Positions 4,743 to 8,421 of a stretch of DNA of 8,421 nt are shown here, one piece after another. The translations under genes and the position numbers were made by a program. The notes below the pieces were generated by a model. That model saw only the letters and a program-made list of their open reading frames with translations, did no database searches and was not told where the DNA came from. The stretch is taken from positions 1 to 8,421 of the forward strand of contig CANJKQ010000022.1 of assembly GCA_947474905.1 (NCBI GenBank), read 5' to 3'. Numbering within the stretch: the stretch's first letter is position 1; every line of letters begins with the position of its first letter. The stretch is from Pseudomonadota bacterium (lineage in GTDB: Bacteria; Pseudomonadota; Alphaproteobacteria; Sphingomonadales; Sphingomonadaceae).

Positions 4743-5651
4743 TTAGTGGCGCCTGTTCATGATGCCAAGCACTGATGGCGGCGGTAGGGCACCCGCCTGT
4801 CGATAACCCTGATACGCCGCCTGCAGCGCGACAAGCGACGCGCGGACATCGGGCGCCGCCGTGCTTGCCTGCAACGTCGCGGTAATGAGCCGTATCTGCC
4901 GGTCAATCAACGCGGCAAACTCGACGGGCGCCATCAACCCGATATCGACGGCAATGCGCCACGCCACCGCCATCGACGTAGTGACCGACCCTGCCCCTGC
5001 GCTGGCATCGACCTCGGCGAGGCTTGGCAGGTCCTCGGCCTCACCCGCCGCCATTCGCTTGAGGATTGCCGCCGCCCACGGTCGGTCCTGAATGGCCCGC
5101 GCCCGCGCCTCGGCGCGCGCCGCGAGCAAATCGGGCGCAACGATCCTGCCTGCATCAATGACAAGCGGCGCAGCATCGCTCGTATCGCACCGATAACCAG
5201 GCGAGACGACGAAGTCCGCCAGATCTGCTGAGGCCGCCGCGTCCGTCCGCGAATAATGCAATGGCACCGAGCGACAGCTGAGCGGTCGCCGCGCGTGGAT
5301 GATGCACTTGCCATCGGCGAGCGCGCTGCACTGGCCCGCCCTCACATCATCGGCGAGGGCCGATAGGACGATATAACGGGTGTAGTCAACGCGCTTCCCG
5401 TCGCGCATCGCTTTGACGGGCTGCATTCGCGCCGCAAAGTCGCGCAGCAACCGCTTCCTTTCGAAAAACGCCGCCGGGGCCGCGCGCTCCCCCGTTGGTG
5501 GCTGTTGCGGCAGCCAATAGGCGCTGATCATCAGCCGCAGCACGAAATCATCCGCCAGCGCCGCCGCTTCCGACAGCGCCATTTCTGGCGCGCGGTTGCA
5601 GCAGGCGCCGCATGCCGTGCAGGCAAAATGCTGACGAGCCGGAGGGGTCAC
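4743..5651 (-). CDS. YkgJ-like CxxCxxCC zinc/iron-chelating-domain protein of unknown function
   Basis: This is a 302-aa protein with no signal peptide or membrane segment. The N terminus carries CTACGACC (Cys 11, 14, 17, 18), the hallmark of the YkgJ/CxxCxxCC family, proposed to bind Zn or an Fe-S cluster. Four further cysteines at 108, 116, 126 and 155 complete a typical pattern: [24 protein letters not shown], then GYRC. Residues 170-300 form an Ala-rich, mainly helical tail that I do not recognise. The start is a GTG at 5651, 41 nt downstream of the tsf stop. No start inside the gene would keep the first cysteine cluster, and the Shine-Dalgarno is poor. It lies between tsf and pyrH on the same strand, with gaps of 41 nt and 38 nt (to the pyrH start at 4704), so it is likely read from the rpsB-tsf transcript. 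The biochemical role is unknown; the family assignment is firm, the function is not. Confidence 0.85.
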
Positions 5652-6814: not shown

Positions 6815-7636
6815 TCACGCGTCGATCTGGCGTTCGCCTTCAAGCGCGGCTTCGACATCGGTCGCGGCGGCGGGCTCTTCCGGATCGGTCAGCGCGACTT
6901 CGGGCAGCGGCTCGTCCATCGCGCCCAAATCAACGCCATAGCTGGCCTGCCGGTCCTGACCGCCGCGTGTGGCCGCAATCGCCACCGCCTCGCAGTAAAG
7001 CCGGATGGCGCGCGCCGCGTCATCATTGGCGGGCACTGGAAAGGCAATGCCGTCAGGCGAGACGTTCGAATCGAGGATCGCGACAACCGGAATGCCAAGC
7101 GTATTGGCTTCCTTGATCGCCAGCTCTTCCTTGTTGGCGTCAATCACGAACATCACGTCGGGGATGCCGCCCATGTCGCGAATGCCGCCCAGCGACAGCT
7201 CGAGCTTGTCGCGCTCGCGCGTCAGCTGCAGCACTTCCTTCTTGGTGAGGCCATGGGTGTCGCCCGACAGCTGCTCTTCCAGGCTCTTCAAACGGCGGAT
7301 CGAACCCGAGATCGTCTTCCAGTTGGTGAGCATGCCGCCCAGCCAGCGGTGATTGACGAAATGCTGGCCTGAACGCCGCGCCGCCTCTGCAATCGGCTCC
7401 TGCGCCTGGCGCTTGGTACCGACGAACAGCACCTTACCACCCGCCGCGACGCTGTGCGACACGAAATCAAGCGCACGCGCGAACAGCGGCACGGTCTGCG
7501 ACAGATCGAGGATGTGGATGCCGTTGCGCTCGCCGAAGATATAAGGCTTCATCTTCGGGTTCCAGCGATGCGTCTGGTGGCCGAAATGCGCGCCGGTTTC
7601 AATCAATTGCTGCATGGTGACGACAGGAGCCGCCAT
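6815..7636 (-). CDS. rpsB: Small-subunit ribosomal protein S2 (uS2)
   Basis: S2 is a 30S protein that assembles late, contacts S1 and is needed for translation initiation. The 273-aa sequence starts [20 protein letters not shown] and continues with the family motifs [59 protein letters not shown], the helical hairpin [10 protein letters not shown] to [14 protein letters not shown], then [31 protein letters not shown] and the [20 protein letters not shown] stretch. The last ~45 residues are an acidic Ala/Glu/Pro-rich tail, so the protein is longer than the 241-aa E. coli S2. The ATG at 7636 is preceded by a minus-strand AAAGGA (7643-7648) with 6 nt spacing. The frame is open up to 7759, but that part is leader sequence. 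It is the first gene of the minus-strand block after a divergent intergenic region with a structured leader. Confidence 0.98.
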
Positions 7637-7784: not shown

Positions 7785-7798
7785 GAACAAATTGGAAC
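7785..7798 (+). promoter_or_regulatory. Upstream imperfect LexA-like half-site pair (GAAC-N6-GAAC)
   Basis: GAAC at 7785-7788 and GAAC at 7795-7798 are separated by 6 nt, one base short of the N7 spacing of alphaproteobacterial LexA boxes. Its second half lies in GGAACATAG (7794-7802), which recurs exactly at 7835-7843 in the better site, 41 bp downstream or about four helical turns. It may be a weaker auxiliary operator or a decayed copy. Confidence 0.35.
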
Positions 7799-7814
7799 AT
7801 AGCAAAAACTTTGC

Positions 7815-7844
7815 TTGACAGGCGGAACGATAACGGAACATAGT
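7815..7844 (+). promoter_or_regulatory. Promoter of the small membrane-protein gene
   Basis: TTGACA at 7815-7820 is a perfect -35 hexamer. After 18 nt, CATAGT (7839-7844) matches the -10 consensus at four of six positions; spacings of 16 or 17 give poorer hexamers. An A-rich inverted repeat, AGCAAA-AAC-TTTGCT at 7801-7815, touches the upstream edge of the -35 box. A start near 7851 gives a leader of about 50 nt before the ATG at 7903. It diverges from the rpsB transcript. Confidence 0.6.
7825..7839 (+). promoter_or_regulatory. LexA-like (SOS) operator, GAAC-N7-GAAC
   Basis: GAACGATAACGGAAC is two GAAC half-sites in direct repeat with 7 nt between them. On the other strand it reads GTTC-N7-GTTC, the established alphaproteobacterial LexA box. 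It occupies the spacer between the TTGACA -35 and the -10 of the plus-strand promoter, where a bound repressor would block RNA polymerase. An 8-base pattern can arise by chance, so the promoter position carries most of the weight. Confidence 0.55.
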
Positions 7845-7902
7845 TAGATCATAGCGAGACAGCCCCGGTATCGCCGCGCTGGTCAGACGAAGGAGCAGAA
7901 TG

Positions 7903-8112
7903 ATGGTGGCAGCAATCGAGTTCGGCCTTTTCCTCGGCGCGCTGGCGATGATCGGCTGGGTATTTGCAGCAACGCTGATGCCCGCCCTGCCCCGCATTAT
8001 CGCGCTGTTGACGGGGGAAGCAGCGGCCCATCAACCCTCCGCCCGGATCATTGTTCTGGCGCCGGGTCGGCGGGCGATGCCGACCGCGCCGGTTTGGCGC
8101 GCGGCCGCCTGA
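7903..8112 (+). CDS. Small single-span membrane protein of unknown function, putatively SOS-controlled
   Basis: This 69-aa protein is not recognised. Residues ~4-25 form a strongly hydrophobic segment (IEFGLFLGALAMIGWVFAATLM), followed by PALPRIIALL, which could extend the helix or lie at the membrane surface. The C-terminal ~30 residues are polar and basic (four arginines, one histidine) and are probably cytoplasmic by the positive-inside rule. There is no cleavable signal peptide. An AAGGAG at 7890-7895 is 7 nt from the ATG at 7903 and only 4 nt from the ATG at 7900, so I prefer 7903; the other start adds one methionine. It has its own promoter with a LexA-like operator and is the only plus-strand gene here. 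Its last 65 nt overlap the 3' end of pssA in convergent orientation. The ribosome binding site and promoter support a real gene; a role in the DNA-damage response is inference. Confidence 0.7.
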   Translation: MVAAIEFGLFLGALAMIGWVFAATLMPALPRIIALLTGEAAAHQPSARIIVLAPGRRAMPTAPVWRAAA

Positions 8113-8421
8113 CGCGGCGATAGGCGCGCGCACTGAACGGCAGCAACGCGAGATACGCCAGCGCCAGCGCGCTCAGCGTGTGCCATGGCGCCGAAGCGAA
8201 AGCGGCGGCAAACAGCACAACGACCGCCAGCGCCTCGAAGCGGATATTCTGCCGGAGCCGGAGCGACCCCCAGGAAAAGGTCGCAAGGCTCGATACCATC
8301 AGCACCGCGATCACCGCCACCCAGGGCGCAACCACCAGCGGCGCGCGCAGAACAGGCGCGTCGGTCAGGAACCACAGATACATTGGCAGCATGGCGAGCC
8401 CCGCCCCCACCGGCGCGGGCA
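8048..8421 (-). CDS. pssA: CDP-diacylglycerol-serine O-phosphatidyltransferase, C-terminal part (5' end beyond the window)
   Basis: The frame is open from the right edge to a TGA at 8048, giving about 124 C-terminal residues. The fragment begins PAPVGAGLAMLPMYLWFL and shows three or four hydrophobic helices. It contains LMVSSLATFSWGSLRLRQNI, which corresponds to the 'LMVS-x-x-T-x-S-x-K' helix end typical of bacterial PssA, and ends in a basic, Ala/Pro-rich tail. PssA makes phosphatidylserine from CDP-diacylglycerol and serine, the step towards phosphatidylethanolamine. Its substrate comes from CdsA, encoded further along the same strand. The catalytic CDP-alcohol phosphotransferase motif would lie outside the window, so the call rests on the C-terminal pattern and could be another member of that superfamily. 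A GTG inside the fragment at 8410 is not the true start. Confidence 0.75.
   Translation of the reverse strand, partial: PAPVGAGLAMLPMYLWFLTDAPVLRAPLVVAPWVAVIAVLMVSSLATFSWGSLRLRQNIRFEALAVVVLFAAAFASAPWHTLSALALAYLALLPFSARAYRRVRRPRAKPARSASPADPAPEQ
8058..8090. terminator. Hairpin in the convergent overlap of the small gene and pssA (possible bidirectional terminator)
   Basis: GGTCGGC (8065-8071) and GCCGACC (8079-8085) pair perfectly around a 7-nt loop. After a 2-nt bulge the stem continues with GGCGC (8058-8062) and GCGCC (8086-8090), giving 12 bp in total. No T-run follows on either strand. It lies where the two transcripts meet, inside both reading frames, so it may limit readthrough or may simply follow from GC-rich coding sequence. 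Confidence 0.3.

Follow-up and report, generated by a model that had tools for sequence, protein, structure and literature searches.

The stretch of DNA analysed here (the window) is 8,421 nt long and carries, divergent from rpsB, a short open reading frame preceded by a promoter and a LexA-type box (Table 1). The ORF encodes 70 residues from its first ATG and 69, the length given in the first-pass annotation of this DNA, from the second, and has one hydrophobic segment, as described there; the consensus TTGACA, the GAAC-N7-GAAC repeat within the promoter spacer and the strong AAGGAG listed there are likewise present. At its 3' end the ORF overlaps a convergent gene for a CDP-alcohol phosphatidyltransferase (pssA-like). 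The promoter, TTGACA and CATAGT separated by an 18-nt spacer, has 10/12 matches (mean of 0.1 in shuffles). The exact GAAC-N7-GAAC occurs as a single copy in the whole window, and at least one match is found in 43/200 shuffles of the window; the box by itself is therefore weak, and the case for LexA rests on comparison. Elsewhere in the window, a 302-aa ORF on the minus strand (4743-5651) has a cysteine cluster near its N-terminus and lies between two genes that are presumably tsf and pyrH.

Table 1. Features of the locus; coordinates are positions within the 8,421-nt window.
Feature	Position	Strand	Remarks
rpsB	6815..7636	-	divergent neighbour; anchor for the comparison
Upstream near-copy, GAAC-N6-GAAC	7785..7798	+	wrong spacing, perhaps a decayed second box
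-35 hexamer, TTGACA	7815..7820	+	across the family, 5-6/6 matches starting 9-12 nt before the box in 59/70 loci
LexA box, GAAC-N7-GAAC (GAACGATAACGGAAC)	7825..7839	+	in 70/73 loci; also at recA, lexA and uvrA in related genomes
-10-like hexamer, CATAGT	7839..7844	+	shares the last base of the box
Ribosome-binding site, AAGGAG	7890..7895	+	
Small membrane protein ORF	7900..8112	+	70 aa; 69 aa with the start at 7903
Most hydrophobic 19-residue stretch (residues 8-26) within the membrane helix	7921..7977	+	
CDP-alcohol phosphatidyltransferase gene (pssA-like, partial)	8048..8421	-	3' end overlaps the ORF at 8048-8112
C-terminal Ala-Ala-Ala and stop	8101..8112	+	candidate ClpXP-type degron

The comparison set consisted of the best 80 of 584 rpsB loci retrieved with the window's rpsB protein, with record labels naming Sphingomonadales genera, or only Sphingomonadales, Sphingomonadaceae, Alphaproteobacteria or Pseudomonadota, and once Actinobacteria. 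One locus with only 172 bp upstream (L007) was dropped, leaving 79 readable loci. A divergent ORF with an N-terminal membrane helix, starting at most 1300 bp from rpsB, is found in 72 of the 79, and 69 of these also have the box, an outcome in favour of LexA control, which orthologues without the paired motif would have spoken against. The range in which starts were looked for was 100-1300 bp from rpsB, which places the genes of L078 (1320 bp), L042 (1520 bp) and L053 (2582 bp) outside the range. No ORF of the family type was listed beside rpsB in L035, L053, L075 and L078, and the hydrophobic ORF listed in L042, L047 and L048 was judged by eye to lie outside the family. The counts exclude additional ORFs in L051, L058, L074 and L080 and, of the tandem pair in L062, the first copy; start codons were picked by Shine-Dalgarno score, and L019 was added by hand. 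With the window the family has 73 members of 63-109 aa (median 79), of which 71 entered the alignment (all except L061 and L069).

The proteins have little in common beyond their architecture. Mean column identity in the alignment is 22%, and a single-sequence search of the window protein against 5.8 billion proteins returned, apart from the protein itself, a single relative at 67%. No family match for the small protein was found in Pfam, NCBIfam, PHROG, PADLOC or the PDB; a hit to Pfam DUF6187 in 1/71 members (E 0.0018) was taken as chance. The structure model has one helix spanning residues 2-37, with a mean pLDDT of 96-99 over residues 1-30, followed by an unstructured tail of low confidence, and no second helix was seen in any of the 73 members. 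Insertion into the membrane is a well-supported prediction. The N-terminal flank carries a net charge of 0 or -1 and the segment after the helix is positive in 73/73 members, Arg being far more frequent than Lys in the whole family proteins (670 vs 46). By the positive-inside rule the positive flank marks the cytoplasmic side, and the C-terminal tail is accordingly predicted to be cytoplasmic in all 73. Loss of the frame in close relatives had been raised as a sign against the reading, and the outcome favours it: judged from substitution patterns, the frames are under purifying selection. Values of dN/dS lie between 0.10 and 0.46 for the 40 closest pairs listed, with the reservation that the 3' part of the ORF often overlaps another gene, and changes at the first, second and third codon positions number 1824, 1348 and 3220 over 95 pairs, the third being highest.

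The 260 bp preceding the ORF start hold 98 copies of GAAC-N7-GAAC at 70/73 loci (69 relatives and the window): one copy in 46 loci, two in 20, three in four and none in three. Each alternative spacing between 0 and 20 occurs 0-11 times in the same regions and the N7 motif in the opposite orientation three times, and no GAAC-N7-GAAC was found on either strand of 314,718 bases of control DNA taken from rpsB onwards. Whole genomes contain 69-156 box matches per 2.6-4.8 Mb (10 genomes), which sets the chance expectation at about 0.005-0.01 box per 260 bp. The second half-site is mostly GAACAT (A in 66/70, T in 47/70). The -35 match before the box, present at 59/70 loci, compares with 4.6/70 after shuffling of the flanks, and is absent from the Sphingobium and Sphingopyxis members. 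An exact box also lies within 450 bp before the match start of recA in 9/10, lexA in 10/10 and uvrA in 10/10 of ten related genomes, the window's own not being among them, as had been anticipated for a genuine LexA box. The LexA site of Caulobacter is given as GTTC-N7-GTTC (PMC12700426, PMC9578287). A protein profile yielded further relatives, and of the 29 best-scoring ones 27 carry the box and 27 have an Ala-Ala end. The two box-free proteins are those of L030 and L055 again, and species already in the set recur among several others, which leaves the 29 not fully independent. LexA control, proposed in the first-pass annotation from the window alone, has thus gained strong comparative support from sequence data, and the small gene is very probably a member of the LexA regulon.

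The claim of tandem LexA-like sites in the window stands in part. The 9-mer GGAACATAG is indeed repeated at 7794 and 7835, 41 bp apart, and two copies occur in 0/200 shuffles; the upstream copy, however, has a gap of 6, one base under the LexA spacing of 7, and GAAC-N6-GAAC is at background level in the family (3/73 loci). Since an extra exact box lies 5' of the -35 in 8/59 loci with a clear -35 at the main box (window counted), it is plausible that the near-copy is a decayed second LexA site. As to arrangement, in the loci with an extra exact box (L001, L005, L040, L064, L066 and L072-L074) the sites bracket the -35, and the window's off-spacing copy likewise lies 5' of its own.

The box lies between two divergent genes, only 146-200 bp from rpsB in many loci, and within 900 bp upstream of rpsB in 69/79 readable loci, so it could in principle serve rpsB or a divergent regulatory region, the ORF being incidental. 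This is highly improbable. The distance from box to ORF (median 112, sd 38) is held more tightly than that from box to rpsB (median 202, sd 142), the promoter is directed at the ORF, and the ORF is under selection. Where the ORF is separated from rpsB, the box follows the ORF: in the genomes of L042, L047, L053 and L078 an exact box is found at -52, -52, -52 and -113 before the small gene (4/4), and none within 900 bp upstream of rpsB. The overlap with the pssA-like gene is kept in all four, and three of the genes lie only 1.3-2.6 kb from rpsB (L042, L053 and L078; in L047 the gene is not within 4 kb). The box as an rpsB operator was rejected on the direction of the promoter, the tighter spacing to the ORF and the persistence of the box with it, and the ORF as a chance frame on the evidence of selection.

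The C-terminus ends in Ala-Ala in 65/73 members vs 9/533 control long ORFs of the same loci, the commonest family ending being Arg-Ala-Ala-Ala (RAAA). In 8/8 related genomes the tmRNA tag has IAA or LAA at its end, and Caulobacter ClpXP is described in a review as recognising non-polar C-terminal residues (PMC8973945). The tail is probably a ClpXP degron, and remains a candidate in view of its position on the DNA. In 64/71 loci the 3' end of the small gene runs into that of the convergent pssA-like gene (median overlap 62 bp), and in 61/73 loci, including the window, its stop codon lies antisense to a conserved V-K/R-R-x-R of the pssA-like protein; this register count is our own classification, with L012 assigned by eye from near relatives. 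The usual codons for that motif read GCN GCN GCN TGA on the other strand, that is, Ala-Ala-Ala-stop, so that the tail is not independent evidence in these 61 loci. Ala-Ala could then be a by-product of antisense coding, with no degron, a reading considered rather unlikely. It was on account of this confound that the tail was dropped as clean evidence, and the fair test of the degron lies in the 12 out-of-register loci alone (L022, L024, L026, L028, L044, L049, L058, L061, L069, L072, L073 and L074; five are Sphingobium, and L072 and L074 look related). Nine of these 12 end in AA (LAA, MAA, QAA, TAA) vs 9/533 controls (p about 1e-12, kinship among the loci being ignored), which argues against the by-product. 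The endings of the other three are TA, VR and RA; one of them, L061, is without a box too.

At the shared position, which could be read in 52 of 61 overlapping loci, the pssA-like gene uses AGG for 24/25 Arg, a codon that makes up 3.1% of those for Arg in long ORFs, as if the stop of the small gene were held by selection. This rare codon, which pairs with the stop, also occurs in 2/6 Arg cases out of register (L069 and L074), as a by-product of antisense coding would allow; the bias by itself therefore does not prove that the small gene is under selection here and serves as a supporting point.

The overlap of the two 3' ends, and the retention of the pair in 4/4 genomes with rpsB further away, would also suit a LexA-controlled gene acting on its phospholipid neighbour, either through an antisense SOS transcript or through a protein that modulates the enzyme. 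This is very unlikely, in that Sphingobium loci (L022, L024, L026, L028 and L049) keep gene and box after the overlap has been lost, and in L044 and L058 both are present without a pssA-like neighbour in the available flanking DNA.

On the most likely reading the product is an SOS membrane protein that is repressed by LexA, does not last long and probably brakes division in the manner of SidA, YneA or SosA. In the undamaged cell LexA would sit on GAAC-N7-GAAC between the -35 and the -10 and block RNA polymerase, as suggested by where the box lies and by its match to the one at recA, lexA and uvrA. On DNA damage LexA would be cleaved and the small protein made. It would then enter the inner membrane by its single N-terminal helix, the N-terminus outside and the Arg-rich disordered tail predicted to be in the cytoplasm. 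By analogy with SidA, DidA and YneA, the helix would most likely delay septation via the late divisome (FtsW/FtsI/FtsN). The cytoplasmic Ala-Ala tail may finally be read by ClpXP, so that the protein would be gone soon after LexA returns; such rapid clearance is plausible, being suggested by a conserved tail that resembles the tmRNA tag. Taken by itself the division role, which rests on analogy, is given somewhat better than even weight, and the combination of LexA control with a division role the same. Counting against the reading are the box-free loci (L030 and L055 with one-mismatch boxes only, L061 with none) and the genomes of L048 and L075, in which profile searches found no family member. 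The predicted cytoplasmic C-terminus, opposite in placement to that of SosA, also speaks against it.

Both the size and the single helix typical of SOS single-helix division inhibitors (SidA, YneA, SosA, ChiZ) are found in the family. SidA of Caulobacter crescentus is described as a small LexA-controlled inner-membrane protein in an organism with GTTC-N7-GTTC boxes (PMC4211646, PMC12700426), and the family resembles it as small membrane proteins with a LexA-type box in alphaproteobacteria. SidA is set apart by its length of 29 aa (PMC4211646), as compared with 63-109 aa and a long Arg-rich tail in the family. DidA of the same species, at 71 aa, with one membrane helix and induced by damage, is closer in build, but is reported to be induced by DriD independently of SOS, whereas the LexA box is nearly universal in the family; both SidA and DidA are described as acting on FtsW/I/N (PMC4211646). 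YneA of Bacillus subtilis and ChiZ of Mycobacterium are likewise SOS-induced with a single helix, as the family has helix and LexA box, and the helix of YneA is reported to interact with TM7 of FtsW (PMC13396833). They differ in carrying a LysM domain; a Pfam scan of 71 members gave no LysM match, and the family has a predicted cytoplasmic tail and an Ala-Ala end instead. SosA of Staphylococcus aureus is SOS-induced, 77 aa long and has an N-terminal helix; its exposed C-terminus is described as needed for activity, and control of its turnover has been proposed to lie in the C-terminal end (PMC6851548). The C-terminus of SosA is extracellular and a proposed substrate of CtpA (PMC6851548), while that of the family is predicted to be cytoplasmic. 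The C-terminal Ala-Ala of the family is also that of the tmRNA (ssrA) tag; the tag, however, is added by trans-translation and the family tail, mostly RAAA, is encoded by the gene itself.

Tentatively, the family may thus represent a sphingomonad SOS checkpoint protein unrelated to SidA in sequence, with its C-terminus cytoplasmic (opposite to SosA) and a genome-encoded ssrA-like degron. With such a degron, release from the checkpoint would depend on ClpXP in the cytoplasm instead of on an external protease. The same tentative proposal holds that conservation across the order might be limited to promoter, helix, charge pattern and the two C-terminal residues, the rest drifting.

TisB and DinQ of E. 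coli are membrane-acting stress peptides, and the main rival to a division brake is a LexA-controlled protein of this type, which would lower the membrane potential or slow growth and leave the divisome unblocked. Such peptides are likewise small single-helix SOS proteins with no recognisable domain, and fast drift with kept hydrophobicity would fit a loosely specific action on the membrane. We consider this unlikely, though less so than an action on the pssA-like neighbour, since the long Arg-rich tail and the conserved end appear to exceed what a pore-forming peptide needs. Nor was an antisense RNA partner found: an Rfam scan of the window gave no match at gathering score, a result with which such a partner would still be compatible.

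A search of open-licence literature (titles and starts of abstracts) on LexA, SOS, division inhibitors and rpsB in sphingomonads and alphaproteobacteria did not find the gene described, and division arrest after DNA damage in sphingomonads is apparently undescribed in that literature. If the division brake is correct, the order has a candidate gene for it, complete with promoter and candidate degron, and architecture and control of a checkpoint protein can be kept while the sequence drifts almost without constraint. Homology searches would miss proteins of this kind on account of that drift.

The family looks specific to Sphingomonadales. Profile searches of the order gave a match in at least 106/197 genomes (at most 28 candidates scored per genome), and in G009 the gene next to the same small gene belongs to the rpsB family TIGR01011. 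Of eight genomes without a convincing gene beside rpsB, those of L042, L047, L053 and L078 yielded members by profile, and that of L035 a weak one (L163) with the box in the opposite orientation only; the search of the L061 genome returned just an unrelated-looking match. Class-wide, 30 of 113 rpsB loci were taken, L124 and L134 not reading as rpsB where expected; the gene was found in 0/30 and the box within 900 bp in 1/30. At least 7/289 genomes of the class gave a profile match (at most 19 candidates scored in each), five of them (G008, G009, G020, G145 and G155) recurring in the order search and the remaining two spanning stop codons. It is the absence from the class-wide rpsB loci, and the scarcity of class matches that are not already in the order search, that suggest the restriction. 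Second profile matches lie elsewhere in the genomes of L018 (L165) and L016 (L166), each with one in-frame stop and no box in the 260 bp upstream; they may be paralogues or chance matches. In L062, a Novosphingobium, two tandem divergent copies lie 391-1079 upstream of rpsB (L157 and L167), with exact boxes before the second only.
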